Below are positions 39,750-48,240 of a stretch of DNA of 54,408 nt, piece by piece; within the stretch, counting starts at the first letter, position 1, and every line of letters begins with the position of its first letter. The stretch is from the NCBI GenBank assembly GCA_021295715.1, contig JAGWBV010000004.1:1-54408 (forward strand), in the 5' to 3' direction. Under the pieces are notes generated by a model. It saw only the letters and a list, made by a program, of their open reading frames with translations. It was not told where the DNA came from and did no database searches. The translations under genes and the position numbers were made by a program. This DNA is from Candidatus Poribacteria bacterium (GTDB lineage: Bacteria; Poribacteria; WGA-4E; WGA-3G).

Positions 39750-40052
39750 TTATAAATCTTTGCACCTACCTGCCCGTAAATCCTCAAGGACGTTCCCCTC
39801 AAGTTTGTCGAGTTTACCCGTTTTATCATCCTCTTCCAACTGTCTATCCCAGGCTTCCCAGTCGGCTTCTAACGTTTCATAAAGCGTGTTTTCAAGGGTT
39901 TCGAGCAATGCCTCTTGCGTTCTGTCCTCACACTTCACCTTCGGATGTTCTTGTATCCATCCTATCCATCCGTCGCCGTTCTTTTGGATGTGGGCGGTAT
40001 AGGTTGTCTCGTATTCTGAATAGTAGATTTCGACGGTCTGAATTTTTCCCAT
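39750..40052 (-). CDS. HicB-like antitoxin, second copy
   Basis: A 100-residue protein that is a diverged duplicate of the 40349-40651 product: both open MxKIQxVxI, share TYTxHIxKNGxGWIG in the middle and end with the identical LRAGRCKDL. The first half has the HicB-like beta-alpha fold, and the second is a charged helix suited to gripping a toxin. No toxin gene follows. The nucleotides after its stop keep a short stump (encoding IYKT) of the toxin start and then diverge, so the duplication carried the antitoxin without a full toxin. It has a strong AAGGAGG site. Confidence 0.75.
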   Translation of the reverse strand: MGKIQTVEIYYSEYETTYTAHIQKNGDGWIGWIQEHPKVKCEDRTQEALLETLENTLYETLEADWEAWDRQLEEDDKTGKLDKLEGNVLEDLRAGRCKDL

Positions 40053-40095
40053 GTGGACCTCCTTGGGTTGAATAAAATCTCACGCGCATGACTTA

Positions 40096-40401
40096 TTAAA
40101 AGGCGGACCGGATCTGTCGCTCGTATTCGTCATGTCTGCCAATCCAAAACCAAACGAGGATCCCATCTTATTCGCGTGCCAAGGTTCGGTAGTTAATGCC
40201 AACTCTTGCTACCCAACAGGTACCAATCTTTTTGAGATTTAAGGATGGATGTCTTGGATCTCGCTTCAACAGTTCAAATTTTTCATCTGCAAGTTGTTGA
40301 ATCCATCGTGGTAGTCCTTGATAATGTGCCCAAAACTCAGGAGTAGTTTTATAGATCTTTACACCTGCCCGCCCGCAAATCTTCAAGGGCTTTTTCAACA
40401 A
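40096..40401 (-). pseudogene. RelE/ParE-like toxin gene with a nonsense codon
   Basis: The open part (40168-40401, 77 residues) reads TPEFWAHYQGLPRWIQQLADEKFELLKRDPRHPSLNLKK and GTCWVARVGINYRTLARE, which matches RelE/ParE-like toxins up to the last strands. A TAA at 40168-40170 then stops it. Directly behind, in the same frame, come DGILVWFWIGRHDEYERQIRS and a second stop at 40096-40098, exactly the missing C-terminal strand and helix of the family. So a single codon has turned into a stop. TAA rules out selenocysteine. The truncated toxin is probably inactive. The frame overlaps the upstream antitoxin gene by about 50 bp. Confidence 0.75.
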
Positions 40402-40651
40402 GATGATCCAGTCGCCCGGCTTTTATATCTTCCTCAATCTGCTTATCCCAGGCATCTGCACGCGCTATGAGGATTTCGTGGAGTTCAGTTTTGAGGATTT
40501 TCAGTATTGCTTCCGGTGTGTTTCCTTTACACTGCACCTCGGGAACCTCCCGTATCTGTCCTATCCATCCTGCACCATTTTTTTCGATGTGGACAGTATA
40601 GGTGTCTCCGTATTCCGGATTTTGGATTTTGACGATCTGAATTTTTTCCAT
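40349..40651 (-). CDS. HicB-like antitoxin, first copy
   Basis: A 100-residue protein directly upstream of, and overlapping, the broken toxin gene. It opens MEKIQIVKIQNPEYGDTYTVHIEKNGAGWIG (HicB-like fold) and ends in a charged helix with EKALEDLRAGRCKDL. The AAGGAGG site lies 6 nt before the ATG. The promoter at 40689-40717 is a perfect consensus and is likely autoregulated by this protein, because a partial palindrome overlaps its -10. The antitoxin seems to have outlived its toxin. Confidence 0.75.
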   Translation of the reverse strand: MEKIQIVKIQNPEYGDTYTVHIEKNGAGWIGQIREVPEVQCKGNTPEAILKILKTELHEILIARADAWDKQIEEDIKAGRLDHLVEKALEDLRAGRCKDL

Positions 40652-42690: not shown

Positions 42691-43638
42691 TTAGTATCCC
42701 TTCTGCTTGTCAACGACGTTGACTAAGGGATCACCCTTTACGTAACGATGTAGATTGTCAATAAAGAGTTGCATGGCACGTCTCCGAATGTGCTGCGAGG
42801 CACCTGCGCTATGTGAGGTCAGAATGACATTCTGCTGTTCCCACAGTGGGTTATCCGGTGGACACGGTTCTGTATACGTTACGTCCAATCCCGCCCCCGC
42901 TAATTTCCCGCTCCGAAGTGCGGTTACCAACGCCGTTTCGTCAACAACTTTTCCACGACTGACATTCACGAGGTAACTCGCATCAGGCATCTGATTAAAT
43001 TGCGCATCTGATAGGAGTTTATGTGTTTCAGGGGTACTCGGACAGCATACCATGAGGACGTCGGACTTCGCCAAGAACTCCATCAACCCATCCAAACGAA
43101 AGAATTCTGATATGGTATCAGGTTTGTCGATTGGCTCTACGTCAGCGGCAATGACATTAAATTCAAACACCTGTGCGCGTGCCGCGATTGCTCGTCCGAT
43201 GCCACCCAACCCGAGTATGCCCATTGTCATTCCCGCCAGTTCGATGCATGGAACACGTTCCCAATGTTTCGTCTTCATAAATTCCAATTGATCGGGAATC
43301 CGACGGGTGATGGATAAAAGGAGCGCAAAGGCGTGCTCCGCAATCTGTGTGCCATACAAGCCTCGACAGTTGGTGAGTGTAACATCACTCGCCTTGAAAG
43401 CAGGATACATAAATCCTTCAACCCCAGCATGCGGTTGGTGCACCCAACGCAATGCCGTTGCTTCTGGCATAGCATCTTCGCTAACGTGTCCAAACAAAAT
43501 ACCAACATCGGCGATGTGGTCACGCAAAGACGCACCGCGTGGTAAAAAGTGCACCTCAACCCCTGGGGGAACATCCGATAGCATTCCCTCAATTTCGGGT
43601 GCTTGCCGACTGCCAATCAAAACCTTCGTATTATCCAT
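42691..43638 (-). CDS. D-2-hydroxyacid dehydrogenase
   Basis: A 315-residue protein; start at MDNTKVLIGSR (43638) behind GGAGAG. NAD-binding motif GILGLGGIGRAIAAR lies at about 146-160. The catalytic Arg is in LVNVSRGKVVDE, the Glu in the TYTEPCPPDNPLW region, and the His in LTSHSAGAS, where most relatives have TPHxAG. The enzyme should reduce a 2-keto acid to a D-2-hydroxy acid or the reverse. It lies upstream of the Gfo/Idh gene and downstream of the pterin dehydratase gene on the same strand. The substrate is not readable. Confidence 0.88.
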   Translation of the reverse strand: MDNTKVLIGSRQAPEIEGMLSDVPPGVEVHFLPRGASLRDHIADVGILFGHVSEDAMPEATALRWVHQPHAGVEGFMYPAFKASDVTLTNCRGLYGTQIAEHAFALLLSITRRIPDQLEFMKTKHWERVPCIELAGMTMGILGLGGIGRAIAARAQVFEFNVIAADVEPIDKPDTISEFFRLDGLMEFLAKSDVLMVCCPSTPETHKLLSDAQFNQMPDASYLVNVSRGKVVDETALVTALRSGKLAGAGLDVTYTEPCPPDNPLWEQQNVILTSHSAGASQHIRRRAMQLFIDNLHRYVKGDPLVNVVDKQKGY

Positions 43639-43684
43639 ACGTCTCTCCAATGCCGGTTATGTCATCTACCTATAGAAAACCGGA

Positions 43685-43972
43685 TTAACCGCGAATCGAA
43701 TCTGCGTGCTTTGCCCACTGAAAATCGAGGTCACTGATGCCACCCGCATCGTGGGTCATTAGGTCAATCGTCACACGGTTATAGACATTGAACCATTCAG
43801 GGTGGTGGTTCATGGATTCGGCGATTAAGGCGAGTTGTGCCATGAAACCGAACGCTGTAACAAAGGTATCAAACTGGAATTCCTTGTGTAACTTACCGTC
43901 TTCTACCGTCCAACCGTTGAGTTGTCCCAAGTTTTTCTGAATTTCAGCGTCTGAGAGTTTTTTCGCTGCCAT
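43685..43972 (-). CDS. phhB: Pterin-4a-carbinolamine dehydratase
   Basis: A 95-residue protein with the full family pattern: [20 protein letters not shown] at the start, then a [22 protein letters not shown] segment holding the active-site His pair and Trp, then [15 protein letters not shown]. It dehydrates 4a-hydroxy-tetrahydropterin to recycle the cofactor of aromatic amino acid hydroxylases, but no such hydroxylase is in the window. In many bacteria it is a stand-alone gene. The start has GAGGAG 8 nt upstream. Confidence 0.92.
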
Positions 43973-44091
43973 TGAACGTTCTCCTCAAGATGTGATATGT
44001 GTTGGAATCCTGAAAACCATTTCGCTATGTCCAAATCGTGCCCCTTTTCAAAGCAGACAAATTGCCCGATATAGGCATAAGCCAAGTGGCA

Positions 44092-44121
44092 TTGACCGAA
44101 ATTGTAGTGGAAAATTATAAT
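44092..44121 (+). promoter_or_regulatory. Promoter of the repeat-protein / selenoprotein / SDR operon
   Basis: TTGACC (44092-44097), 18 nt, TATAAT (44116-44121). The start codon of the first gene lies 109 nt on, behind AGGAGG. I see no structure of note in the leader. Confidence 0.65.
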
Positions 44122-44230
44122 AAATGCAAGTTAAAATAGTAACAGAGGTTTTCACCACAGCACTCATAACTTTCTGGCGCGCTTTACGACTTTATGTTTT
44201 CACTCATTCGGCTTTATACAGGAGGAACCA

Positions 44231-45460
44231 ATGCCAGGCGCAACCACCCTTTATTTTCCAGAAGTAGGACCCGAATGGCAAGACTGGGTCCAGGTCACAA
44301 ACGTGGGGACTGAAGATACCCGTGTGACCGGAATCGCGAGGCATGCCAACAACGGGCAACCCACGTGGTCTGCGGAAAAAACAATTAGTTCCTTCGAGTC
44401 CTGGATACCCCCCGTTGACGAGATTAAAACGAACTCCTCAATGCAGTTCACCGCCGACCAACCGATTGTAGCAGAACGACACATGCACAAGGACACAAAT
44501 GTGCTGGATTTCATCGGCGCAGCTCCAGAATACGGAACAGTCGGCCAGCGGCTCTTCTTCCCAGAATTGGTCTCCGGTGCTCATGATTGGTTTCGGGTTC
44601 TAAACGTCGGTGAGGCAGACGCGCACGTCAACATCACCGTCAGAAACAGGAACGGCGATGTCCTCAGACAGCGCCATCATGTCATCAAGCCACTCTGCTG
44701 TTGGGATCTCAACGAAGGTGTGATGGGGAACGTTACCGGCACAGTCGAGATGCAAAGTTCACAGCCGATTGTCGGTGAACGCCATCTCCACTACCAAGGC
44801 GGTAAAACAAGTGTCGGACAATTTGGACAAGTGATTTCGGATGCACCTCGGACGCTCTTTTTGCCAGAAGTCGGTCCCGCATGGCAAGATTGGGTTGTCA
44901 TCGTCAACGTTGGAAGAGAAGATGCAGAAGTAACGATGATTGCCCGGAAAGATGACGACGCACGATCAACATGGACAAAAAAACGCGATCGACTGAGACC
45001 TTTTGAGTGCTGGACACCGCCCATAGACGATATTAAAGTAAACTCCTCCGTAGAAGTGCGCAGCAATCAGCCGGTTGTCGCGGAACGACACATGCATAGT
45101 GGAACAGCCATTATCGATTTACCGGGCGCATCGGTGGAGGGTGGACAGATTGGTATTCGGCTTTTTTTCCCTGAAATCGCAGGGGGTGCTTGGGATTGGT
45201 TCCGATTCCTTAACGTCGGGGAAGCAGATGCCTTTGTCAATGTCATCGTCCGTAATCGTGAGGGACATATTCGTCGGCAAGTGCATCGTCAAATTAAACC
45301 ACTCTGCTGCGTAGATATGGATGAGGAGGCAATGGGGAAAGTGCGCGGCACCGTCGAAGTGCAAAGCACACAACCGATTGTCGGTGAAAGACACCTCCAT
45401 TACCAAACCGGACACAAAGGCGCGGTTGTTGGTGAATACGGCGTTGTGATTGGAGAATAA
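44231..45460 (+). CDS. Four-module beta-repeat protein of unknown function
   Basis: A 409-residue protein built as A-B-A'-B'. Module A (about 5-100 and 207-305) reads LYFPEVGPEWQDWVQVTNVG or its close variant and ends AERHMH. Module B (about 102-205 and 307-409) reads RLFFPE..., DWFR, LNVGEADA, then KPLCC and ends VGERHLHYQ. The halves are highly similar, which points to recent internal duplication. There is no signal peptide, membrane helix or enzyme motif I recognise; the pattern suggests beta-sandwich domains that bind something. The Cys pairs in module B are conserved in both copies. It heads an operon with the AhpD-like selenoprotein gene, whose ATG comes 2 bp after its stop. Confidence 0.75.
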   Translation: MPGATTLYFPEVGPEWQDWVQVTNVGTEDTRVTGIARHANNGQPTWSAEKTISSFESWIPPVDEIKTNSSMQFTADQPIVAERHMHKDTNVLDFIGAAPEYGTVGQRLFFPELVSGAHDWFRVLNVGEADAHVNITVRNRNGDVLRQRHHVIKPLCCWDLNEGVMGNVTGTVEMQSSQPIVGERHLHYQGGKTSVGQFGQVISDAPRTLFLPEVGPAWQDWVVIVNVGREDAEVTMIARKDDDARSTWTKKRDRLRPFECWTPPIDDIKVNSSVEVRSNQPVVAERHMHSGTAIIDLPGASVEGGQIGIRLFFPEIAGGAWDWFRFLNVGEADAFVNVIVRNREGHIRRQVHRQIKPLCCVDMDEEAMGKVRGTVEVQSTQPIVGERHLHYQTGHKGAVVGEYGVVIGE

Positions 45461-45462
45461 AT

Positions 45463-46032
45463 ATGGCATGGATTCAAACCGTAGATGAGGCAGATGCCAC
45501 CGGGATCGTGAAAGAGGAATACGACGCAGCGATTGCGCGGGCGGGTCAACTTTACAATATCGTCATACTTTTCAGTGCCCGACCGAAAAGTATGCGTGCT
45601 TTCGTTGAGCTCTACAAAGTCGTGATGCACGACCCGGACTGCCCATTGAGTCGGATGCAACGGGAAATGATCGCCACCGTCGTCTCAAAAGTGAACGAAT
45701 GCCACTACTGAATAATAGCACACGCCGATGAATTGCGGGAACAATTCACAGACGAACAGATTACACAGATTGTAACGGATTTTCAGACGGCTGATATTGA
45801 CGAAACCACAAAAGCGATGCTTGAATTTGCCGTCAAAGTAACGAATGCAGCACCGACTGTTACACAAGCAGACTTGGAACGCCTGCGTAGTTACGGACTC
45901 ACTGACGAGGCACTCTTCGCTATTGTGGAGGTCGTCGGGTTTTTCTGTTACGTCAACAGGATAGCGGATGCGTTCGGAATTGAATTAGACGATTTTCTGG
46001 AAGGGAGAAATTTTGATGAATCTAACGGATAA
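45463..46032 (+). CDS. AhpD-like peroxidase-related selenoprotein (CxxU), UGA read as selenocysteine
   Basis: Read through the TGA at 45709-45711, the frame gives 189 residues that fit the peroxidase-related/carboxymuconolactone decarboxylase (AhpD-like) family from end to end: LSRMQREMIATVVSKVNE, then C80-H-Y-U83-I-I-A-H87, then the AMLEFAVKVT and VVGFFCYVNRIADAFG helices. The family active site is CxxC with a His four residues on; here the second Cys is TGA. A stem-loop of bacterial SECIS type starts 18 nt after it. Downstream residues stay conserved and no frameshift is needed. AhpD-like enzymes reduce peroxides or partner disulfides. The gene sits between a repeat-protein gene and an SDR gene whose start overlaps its end. 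Confidence 0.85.
45709..45748 (+). promoter_or_regulatory. Candidate bacterial SECIS element
   Basis: After the TGA at 45709-45711, TGAATTG (45729-45735) pairs perfectly with CAATTCA (45742-45748) around the loop CGGGAA (45736-45741). The apical loop begins 25 nt after the TGA, the stem has 7 bp, and a G is among the first two loop bases; all three match the published description of bacterial SECIS elements, which SelB binds to deliver selenocysteinyl-tRNA. Confidence 0.75.
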
Positions 46033-46762
46033 AATTGCGATTGTGACAGGCGCGGGACAGGGTATCGGCAAAGCGATTGCCATCAGACTCGCAAACGCTG
46101 GGGCAGATGTCGGTATCATGGATTTAAATATGGCAGCCGCTGAAGCGGTAGCACAGGAAATTGAGGCTACTGGACGCAAAGCATTACCCGTTCAGGCAGA
46201 TGTATCACAATCTACTGATGTCAATGCCGCTGTGGAAAAAGTGATTTCCACCTTTAGTCGTGTTGACATTCTCGTCAACAATGCCGGCATTGCGGGACGG
46301 ACACTGCCATTAACCGACTTAGAAGAATCGGATTGGGATGCCGTGATGGGTGTAAATCTCACAGGCGTTTTTCTCTGCTGCAAAGCAGTCATTCGTCCGA
46401 TGATTGCGCAGGATTACGGGAGGATTGTGAACATTGCCTCAATTGCTGGCAAGGAGGGCAATCCGACGCTCATCCCGTATTCGGTGTCTAAGGCGGGGGT
46501 CATCTGCCTGACAAAAGCACTGGCGAAAGAGGTAACCGACTATAACATCCGTGTGAACGCCGTATCCCCCGCGGTGATCCAAACACCGATATTGGAAGGC
46601 ATGGCGCAATCGACGATTGACTATATGGTGGGTAAAATTCCGTTGGGACGTGTCGGGAAACCGGAAGAAGTTGCGGCTGTGGTGAATTTCTTGGCTTCAG
46701 ATGAGGCGAGTTTCGTGACAGGGCAATGCTACGATGTCAGCGGTGGAAGAGCGACGTATTAG
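46016..46762 (+). CDS. Short-chain dehydrogenase/reductase
   Basis: A 248-residue classical SDR. NAD(P)-binding motif TGAGQGIG (about 11-18), NNAG at about 88-91, catalytic Ser in IVNIASIAG and the YxxxK as YSVSK (about 155-159). Its last residues SFVTGQCYDVSGG are typical of FabG-like members. The start is the ATG at 46016, behind GGGAG and inside the end of the selenoprotein gene (17-bp overlap), so translation is coupled. It oxidises an alcohol or reduces a ketone with NAD(P); the substrate is unknown. Confidence 0.93.
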   Translation: MNLTDKIAIVTGAGQGIGKAIAIRLANAGADVGIMDLNMAAAEAVAQEIEATGRKALPVQADVSQSTDVNAAVEKVISTFSRVDILVNNAGIAGRTLPLTDLEESDWDAVMGVNLTGVFLCCKAVIRPMIAQDYGRIVNIASIAGKEGNPTLIPYSVSKAGVICLTKALAKEVTDYNIRVNAVSPAVIQTPILEGMAQSTIDYMVGKIPLGRVGKPEEVAAVVNFLASDEASFVTGQCYDVSGGRATY

Positions 46763-46830
46763 GTAGCAGTCAGCTGTCTGTATTCCGATGAATCAAGGAA
46801 GAGCGCGGCCGGGAGATCGATCCTACAGAA

Positions 46831-46856
46831 AGAGGCGGAGTTTTACCTCCGCCTCT
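46831..46856. terminator. Bidirectional hairpin between SDR and PQQ genes
   Basis: A perfect 10-bp stem AGAGGCGGAG/CTCCGCCTCT with a 6-nt loop TTTTAC lies between two convergent genes. It has no long T-tract in either direction, but its position suits a shared terminator. The preceding TCCTACAGAAAGAGG resembles TCCTACAGAGAGGG inside the 14912-15161 element. Confidence 0.55.
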
Positions 46857-46887
46857 AACTTATAGTCTCTCAATTGAAAAATCGTTT

Positions 46888-48240
46888 CTATTCTGCGATA
46901 CAGTAGAGATACTGACCGCCGCGGAGGAATAACTCCGAACCCACAACTGCAGGTGAAGCGTTGAAGCTATCGTCCAACGTGTTTTCCGCTATGATTGTAA
47001 ATTCGGGACCGTGCTGGAGAACGTTCACGGTTCCGTTCCGTCCGGTGATGTAAACGCGATCCGATGCCCCAACAATCGAAGCGTAGACCCCAGAAACACC
47101 CTGTAACCGTTTCGGACCGTAGTGCGCCTCACCAGTTTTAACATTGAAAGCAGTGAGGATACCGTCGTTGCTTTTCAAGAAATAGAGTATATCACCATAG
47201 AGGAGTGGCGACGGAACATAAGGGGTATCCCGACCGTGTTCCCACACAATTGCCCCTGAACTGCTAATATCACCCATTGCTTTTGCAAGATGGACTGCCT
47301 TCAAGTCACTGCCTCGGAAACCACTCATCAGATAAACGAACCCGTCAGCAGCGACAGGTGAAGGAATACTATTCGCAGTCAACCCATCGCCTTCCCACAA
47401 AAGTTCACCCGTTTCCAAATCGTAACTACGGACACGATTTGTCCCTGCGGTAACCACTTGATATTTCCCATCCTGTTCAACGACAATCGGTGAAAACCAA
47501 GTTGTTCTTTCATTGCGGTCGGTCTTCCATAACACATCCCCTGTCCGCTTGTCAAGCGCGGTAATAAAGGAATCACCCTCATGGTCCTGAACAATAACGA
47601 GTGTGTTACCGTGAAGAACAGGTGAACTCCCTTCTCCGAAGGTATTGCGTTTATACATCGTGCCAACATCTTTTTCCCATTTCACATTGCCCATCATATC
47701 CACACAGTAAAGCCCGCGCGAACCGAAATAAGCATAGATGAACTCACCATCGGTGACCGGAGAGTTTGAAGCGAAAGTGGCATCTTGATGCGTGCCTTCA
47801 TGGGGATTTAACTCTCGCAGCGTTTTCTGCCAGAGGATACTCCCATCATTTCGATTGATGGCGATAAGATTAAACTTGTAGGCGTTTTCAACTGCCCCTC
47901 GTCCACGCCTTTGGTTAAAGAAACCGCTGAACGGGTTGTCATCGCCTGATTCCTCGGCTTCTGCTTTCGACGCTTCCCCCTTAATTGCGGTTTGGATGAA
48001 AATTTTGTCTTCCCAAACAATTGGCGCGGCATGTCCTATGCCGGGGATAGCGACTTTCCAACGGATGTTTTCAGTTTCACTCCATGTCGTGGGTGGACTG
48101 GCTTCAACTGCGACACCAGTTGCGTGAGGTCCGCGCCAGTGGTGCCAGTTCTTCTCGAAACCGATTGGCTGTGACGCGCTCGCTGCGATCACCGTCAAAG
48201 TAAGGGTAAACACTGTTAGAATTGCGATTCTCTTTATCAT
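46888..48240 (-). CDS. Secreted PQQ-like beta-propeller protein
   Basis: A 450-residue exported protein; start at MIKRIAILTVFTLTL (48240) behind AGAGGA, so the signal peptide is about 23 residues (ending ASASQ). Then comes WHHWRGPHATGVAVEASPPTTWSETENIRWKVAIPG, the standard opening of the PQQ-binding-like propellers common in planctomycete-like genomes, and several blades with the W-x(n)-G-x-L/I pattern (GSILWQKTL, GDVLWKTD, GELLWEG). Such propellers often lack PQQ and bind partners or sugars outside the cytoplasm. It lies behind the M16 protease gene on the same strand with a 102-bp gap. Confidence 0.85.
   Translation of the reverse strand: MIKRIAILTVFTLTLTVIAASASQPIGFEKNWHHWRGPHATGVAVEASPPTTWSETENIRWKVAIPGIGHAAPIVWEDKIFIQTAIKGEASKAEAEESGDDNPFSGFFNQRRGRGAVENAYKFNLIAINRNDGSILWQKTLRELNPHEGTHQDATFASNSPVTDGEFIYAYFGSRGLYCVDMMGNVKWEKDVGTMYKRNTFGEGSSPVLHGNTLVIVQDHEGDSFITALDKRTGDVLWKTDRNERTTWFSPIVVEQDGKYQVVTAGTNRVRSYDLETGELLWEGDGLTANSIPSPVAADGFVYLMSGFRGSDLKAVHLAKAMGDISSSGAIVWEHGRDTPYVPSPLLYGDILYFLKSNDGILTAFNVKTGEAHYGPKRLQGVSGVYASIVGASDRVYITGRNGTVNVLQHGPEFTIIAENTLDDSFNASPAVVGSELFLRGGQYLYCIAE

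Follow-up and report, generated by a model that had tools for sequence, protein, structure and literature searches.

The gene analysed here, at 44231-45460 on the forward strand (stop codon included) of a 54,408-nucleotide stretch of a Candidatus Poribacteria contig (JAGWBV010000004.1; hereafter the window), encodes a 409-aa protein of four modules in the order A-B-A'-B', described by a fold model, module alignments and dN/dS. We assign these four modules to a distinct family of ASRAH-like domains. We lean, by a little, towards the view that the protein acts as a cytosolic, one-chain pseudo-tetramer of such domains, a metabolite-binding and non-catalytic sensor or scaffold for an enzyme of its operon. 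A protein that most genomes of the phylum encode, and that scores below the cut-off of every Pfam and NCBIfam model, is thereby assigned a fold, a family and a function open to test.

The tetrad gene behaves as a real gene under strong purifying selection, with dN/dS values of 0.034-0.055 against six relatives. Its reading frame starts with an ATG, a ribosome-binding-like AGGAGG stands at 44220..44225, and a promoter-like TTGACC-18-TATAAT (44092..44121, 11 of 12 positions) lies ahead of it as a match to the consensus only, in a region where 6 such sites were found versus 2.7 expected; all these features are on the forward strand. Module A1 spans residues 1-104 (44231..44542) and module A2 residues 206-308 (44846..45154), both placed by local alignment and by their strands in the model. 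Module B1 covers residues 105-205 (44543..44845), with the ASRT structure 2ii8_A matching residues 103-185 (Z 10.4), and module B2 covers residues 309-409 (45155..45457), with TM1070 (1nc7_B) matching residues 301-409. In local alignments, 50 of 99 positions are identical between A1 and A2 and 65 of 98 between B1 and B2, with 26-33 identities over 77-92 columns in the four A/B pairs; the A and B module profiles match each other in hhalign at E 3.8e-28. None of 500 shuffles reached the real score in any of the six module pairs, which confirms the four modules of about 100 residues in A-B-A'-B' order proposed by the first-pass annotation, and the repeated motifs that it quoted are all present. 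Judged by sequence similarity, all four modules are homologous. Elsewhere in the window, on the reverse strand, two similar 100-aa proteins are encoded about 300 nt apart (39750-40052 and 40349-40651), with no Pfam match at E<=0.001; the layout of this pair (39750-40651) recalls a duplicated antitoxin-like gene, as an impression only.

The AlphaFold2 model of the tetrad, built from 31 aligned sequences, has a pLDDT of 93.8 and a pTM of 0.91. Its top match among solved structures is TM1070 (Z 13.7, rmsd 2.6 A, 104 of 116 residues aligned), for which Foldseek gives 1nc7 a probability of 1.00; four entries of the Anabaena sensory rhodopsin transducer reach Z 9.8-10.4 over 82-86 residues, and the next fold reaches 7.3. 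Similarly, a dyad of another family, modelled on its own, matches TM1070 at Z 13.2 on module B and ASRT at Z 10.1-10.6, best on module A, with the next fold at 6.3. The first Foldseek rows for the tetrad, complement, macroglobulin and similar chains, have query TM-scores of 0.10-0.15 and were set aside as multi-domain noise. At the profile level, hhalign against canonical ASRTs gives 86.7% for all modules together (E 4.4e-6), 79.5% for the A modules and 50.7% for the B modules, with reversed controls at <=0.3% (0.1% for the all-module control); the canonical set holds 5 sequences, of which L167 is only 10 aa long after trimming. The modules gave no profile-profile signal in hhalign against 12 poribacterial ASRTs, and the B modules drop to 11.8% once these join the canonical set. 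A search of the PDB with the tetrad-family profile returned only aminodeoxychorismate synthase at E 1, and phmmer with the window protein found no PDB match above cut-off. Pfam and NCBIfam scans of the window protein likewise gave no match above cut-off, and Pfam revealed no further domain in it. Scattered weak Pfam families among 31 tetrads and 14 dyad rows, the best being DUF905 (E 0.0015, 3 of the 31 tetrads), were rejected as noise. Resting on these models, we are close to certain that all modules would adopt the ASRT/TM1070 beta-sandwich fold. The first-pass annotation had seen neither a signal peptide nor an obvious known fold and had suggested structure prediction and a profile search. 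The missing signal peptide stands, as we saw none in the 409-aa protein; the fold can now be named. In many relatives, the stop-to-stop frame opens merely 0-4 codons ahead of the ATG.

De Souza et al. 2009 recognize ASRAH domains by the Asn that ends strand 2 and the Trp that begins strand 1, and describe them as solo tetramers, dyads or tetrads, the solo domains adjoining isomerase, aldolase, kinase and transporter genes (PMC2739507). The modules described here have the fold, the strand-2 Asn and profile similarity to canonical ASRTs, and lack the strand-1 Trp; we have therefore filed them as an ASRAH-like sister family and not as plain members. Conservation was counted over 148 modules from 31 tetrads and 12 dyads, with L073 outside that set. 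The Asn is present in all 148: in the window protein it is Asn 24 of A1 (44300..44302), with its equivalents N125 (44603), N226 (44906) and N328 (45212) in B1, A2 and B2 on the same strand, each closing strand 2 in the AlphaFold2 model. The stretch ahead of it reads like WQDWVQVTN or AWDWFRFLN. At the position of the strand-1 Trp, Leu stands in 124 of the 148 modules, Ile in 18 and Val in 3, and the next position is mostly Tyr or Phe. The SHExxC signature that ASRT-like family 1 (PF07100) carries on strand 2 was not found in the modules. PF07100 scores 12.5 bits on the window protein, under its cut-off of 25, and matches 6 of the 31 tetrads weakly (best E 0.049). ASRAH family 3 is probably DUF5719 (PF18986): DUF5719 matches one of 31 tetrads at E 0.08 and one of 14 dyad rows at E 0.088, and hhalign gives it 2.9%, a value that stands without a reversed control. 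Elsewhere in the same genome, another gene encodes a protein above the PF07100 cut-off. The poribacterial PF07100 proteins (L050:1468-2175 and relatives) have some 95-100 additional residues N-terminal to the ASRT domain, an extension for which we found no description in the portion of PMC2739507 covered. By titles and abstract openings of the papers listed, we found no later use of the name ASRAH for this domain beyond that paper, and no literature on Poribacteria together with a sensory rhodopsin transducer.

Besides the Asn, the hallmark of the family is a short motif close to the end of each module. E-R-H occurs in 148 of 148 modules and the full E-R-H-x-H in 143, dyads and tetrads included. 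In the window it reads ERHMH in A1 (residues 82-86, 44474..44488), ERHLH in B1 (183-187, 44777..44791), ERHMH in A2 (285-289, 45083..45097) and ERHLH in B2 (386-390, 45386..45400), all on the forward strand, and in the model it lies within a strand each time (79-87, 170-187, 282-290 and 373-390). From strand geometry, its Glu and two His would face the same side. The polar Glu and His are retained among tetrads down to 42% identity; of 52 tetrads counted, 17 have Gln or Arg in place of the last His of module A2. These 52 tetrads come from 69 matches, the other 17 being shorter after trimming, the tetrads L057 and L058 among them. The ligand-contacting H and C of TM1070 are not conserved in the poribacterial modules. 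The first-pass annotation had pointed to the cysteines of KPLCC and had suggested checking whether they are conserved; the conserved motif is E-R-H-x-H and not KPLCC. The pairs Cys156-Cys157 of B1 (44696..44701) and Cys359-Cys360 of B2 (45305..45310), both on the forward strand, are not conserved in distant relatives, CC being present in 18 of 31 tetrads at module 2, in 19 of 31 at module 4 and in none of 12 dyads.

Poribacteria are sponge-associated bacteria, and among the genomes surveyed the protein is nearly confined to them. All 19 named records with the protein are from Poribacteria, one of them at 100% identity. Among 97 relatives it was found in 75, and genomes of the window's family hold one match each; 76 of 84 genomes of the phylum have it, leaving 8 genomes without a match. 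A survey of 386 genomes gave 79 with a match, of which only 3 are outside the phylum (3 of 302 such genomes at E<=0.1). Among these three, G274 (L162, E 1.9e-8) holds a plausible two-domain protein whose N-terminus looks signal-like by eye; the matches in G199 and G280 look like chance. A plasmid search for relatives gave no match, and among viral contigs 27 pattern matches contained no relative. The gene can also occur in several copies: the G082 genome has 9 matches in the search of relatives and 12 in that of the phylum, and on one of its contigs three four-module genes lie within 6 kb (L060:1273-6950).

Other families of the class and phylum carry half-length A-B dyads. The proposal that a two-domain unit had been duplicated is supported by these dyads of about 205 aa in other genomes and by a tree of 48 halves and dyads, in which the N- and C-halves of the tetrads form sister groups in the order of the window (100/97). 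They do so again in L056/L061/L062 (98/96) and in L059/L060, where the fork has 89/69 inside a 100/98 group that includes the dyad L075; L057 and L058 show no clear grouping of their halves. With three separate pairs of sister halves in the tree, at least three duplications of the dyad apparently gave rise to tetrads. The third case is more weakly supported, and gene conversion between N- and C-halves within an older tetrad could give a similar tree. The opposite may also occur: the dyad L049:1218-1835, on the same contig as L063, groups with N-halves and has a C-half-like end, so that by sequence it is probably a tetrad with a secondary internal deletion. Near one of these tetrads, L062:4772-7804 (G073) holds a MutS-like ORF with intein splicing and LAGLIDADG domains.

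In the window, the tetrad gene is followed on the same strand by a gene for an AhpD/peroxidase-related selenoprotein (45463..46032; TIGR01926 at 147.2 bits, cut-off 81.8), with a Sec TGA at 45709-45711 (CHYU), and by an SDR oxidoreductase gene (46016..46762), the stable downstream gene in close relatives. The first-pass annotation spoke of a selenoprotein operon, which is right for this genome: the AhpD-like gene starts 2 nt past the tetrad stop, its TGA is read through, an in-frame stop stands at the Sec site in all 28 loci that cover it, and the genome has selB (G000:C54:29721-31784, L154; 349.6 bits, cut-off 242.25). A tRNA-Sec match about 60 nt downstream of selB is sub-threshold (39.5 bits, gathering score 47). 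ARAGORN found no tRNA in this piece (L147), and the tRNA-Sec of the lineage may therefore be divergent. Because an Rfam scan of 43500-46900 found nothing and the stem-loop past the Sec TGA has a z of -1.69, with 11 of 200 shuffles equally good, we claim no SECIS element. We found no literature on selenoproteins in Poribacteria.

Close relatives were compared at 40 loci (L001-L030 and L076-L085); the named records L031-L048 stand outside these, being mostly repeats of genomes already counted, and one of them, L047, carries the AhpD gene and appears to be a further genome. The SDR gene is next on the same strand in 39 of the 40, and L028 ends with its contig; in most of them, a pterin-4a-carbinolamine dehydratase gene lies divergently upstream. 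The first-pass annotation had suggested looking for the AhpD-like neighbour in other genomes, and it recurs in part of them: its Sec site is covered at 28 of the 40 loci and the gene is cut by a contig end at 1, but it is absent at 11, and tblastn found no AhpD match (E<=1e-3) in the DNA around 25 deeper loci, nor an SDR match there at E<=1e-10. The 11 loci without it retain the tetrad and SDR genes, and 3' remnants of it persist in two of them (L006 and L080). This loss between two retained genes is a natural case of selenoprotein gene loss.

These findings bear on the first-pass suggestion that the protein is a redox partner of the selenoprotein, its KPLCC pairs accepting electrons from the CxxU enzyme or donating them to it. 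The two genes are adjacent, and the Cys pairs are kept in most close relatives (among 52 tetrads, C156 in 43, C157 in 42, C359 in 40 and C360 in 45). However, homologues in unrelated contexts lack the cysteines, the very outcome that the first-pass annotation had named as refuting its idea. No dyad has CC, the tetrad outlives the AhpD gene at the 11 close loci, no AhpD match lies in the DNA around the deeper ones, and among solved structures ASRT and TM1070 match the protein best. We have rejected a thiol redox partner, the candidate redox-active cysteines being poorly conserved, and we give the idea hardly any credence. With this, the supposed link to selenium redox chemistry falls away as a misleading lead. 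The protein is most likely a sugar- or metabolite-binding partner of adjoining enzymes, rather than a redox protein.

The neighbouring genes differ widely between lineages. At 25 deeper loci from 17 genomes, which are related among themselves and among which L063 is counted, the nearest gene is sugar-related in 8: a GH4 alpha-galactosidase (L051, L075), a PfkB kinase (L065; in L066 and L067 it carries a fused SIS domain), an SMP-30/gluconolactonase (L070), or BNR_4 (L072, L073), counted here as sugar-linked. In L065, the PfkB start codon overlaps the stop of the dyad gene. Neighbours without a sugar link are URO-D-like (L056, L059), a putative cyclase (L052) and FAA hydrolase (L068, L071), and L053 and L054 resemble an rpsF-ssb-dnaB cluster, with dnaB identified by scan in L054 and the rest by eye. 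Against a control of 20 random ORFs >=1.5 kb away, the 8 of 25 compare with 1 of 20 under a strict count (Fisher p 0.027) and with 3 of 20 under a lenient one (p 0.17), and leaving out BNR_4 gives 6 of 25 (p 0.089); we assigned the sugar classes ourselves, unblinded, and the Pfam scans covered the nearest genes of all loci but L053, L054 and L061-L064. This weak excess of sugar genes near the deeper loci is suggestive only.

We therefore favour, with the slight leaning stated above, a non-catalytic metabolite-binding pseudo-tetramer. Duplication of an A-B dyad would have produced a tandem of four ASRAH-like beta-sandwiches, and the single chain would most likely fold into a pseudo-tetramer that corresponds to the homotetramer of TM1070. 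Clefts beside the E-x-H-x-H strands would bind a small metabolite, which is probably a sugar, a sugar acid or a polyol, with the participation of the Glu and His side chains of E-R-H-x-H, and the protein would then modulate, as sensor or scaffold, a metabolic enzyme encoded in its operon. Here, the partner would be the SDR oxidoreductase plus, where present, the AhpD-like selenoprotein. Ligand binding by the tetrad is likely, the chances that the ligand is a sugar are about even, and the partner role is what we infer from the above. If the working unit is four sandwiches, repeated fusion to four modules is to be expected. Since the fusion of units seems to have recurred, the family lends itself to a natural test of whether ASRAH domains work as tetramers, as has been proposed. 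It is also possible, and we put this forward tentatively, that a cytosolic ASRAH-like family present across the phylum (76/84 genomes) passed at least three times from dyad homo-oligomers to single-chain pseudo-tetramers, bearing in each module a new E-R-H-x-H site that acts directly or with the assistance of a metal, and acts as a ligand-sensing subunit that is exchangeable, with an operon partner that varies by lineage (kinase-isomerase, glycosidase, lactonase, or SDR with selenoprotein).

The same motif could be read in two other ways. Because the E, H and H of E-R-H-x-H alternate on one beta-strand, each module might bind a divalent metal for storage, delivery or as a cofactor for the neighbouring oxidoreductases, a reading that would fit the near-universal conservation of the motif in dyads and tetrads alike and its position inside a strand. 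We think this unlikely: beyond the motif no further conserved ligands are mapped in space, the genes scanned include no metal-specific neighbour, and the last His of A2 is the one replaced by Gln or Arg in a third of the tetrads counted. The pseudo-tetramer might instead only organize enzymes, binding no small molecule, with E-R-H-x-H as a packing motif between modules. The wide variation of neighbours would suit such a scaffold, as would a motif equally conserved in every module, as an interface might be. This too we consider improbable, as polar Glu and His are retained in divergent tetrads and the homologous TM1070 fold has a ligand-sized cleft (PMC2739507). Metabolite binding remains our preferred reading.

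That paper raised, in 2009, the question of what ASRT-type proteins do in rhodopsin-less bacteria (PMC2739507), and the poribacterial family can be set beside the systems known so far. Like TM1070 of Thermotoga maritima (PDB 1NC7; ASRAH family 1, PF07100), it has an eight-stranded sandwich with an Asn at the end of strand 2, no signal peptide, a similar strand-1 motif (KWFFPD in TM1070, RLFFPE here) and, as in family 1, sugar-enzyme neighbours at part of its loci. In contrast to TM1070, a homotetramer of single domains, it joins four modules in one chain, lacks SHExxC, has the strand-1 Trp replaced and bears E-R-H-x-H close to the end of each module. With the Anabaena sensory rhodopsin transducer (PDB 2II7, 2II8, 2II9, 2IIA) it shares the fold, but it differs in its tandem copies and strand-2 residues, and no rhodopsin gene is among its identified neighbours. 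The amidase-associated tetrads of Chloroflexi (ASRAH family 2) also have four tandem domains; compared by their description in PMC2739507, they are secreted and amidase-fused, whereas the poribacterial tetrad has neither an amidase domain nor a signal peptide. Finally, the two-domain actinobacterial proteins of ASRAH family 3 are described as secreted lipoproteins with extensions (PMC2739507), unlike the probably cytosolic poribacterial tetrad, and they share with it a two-domain repeat and a similar short motif, TEFWFP...DYVHLTN (L178).
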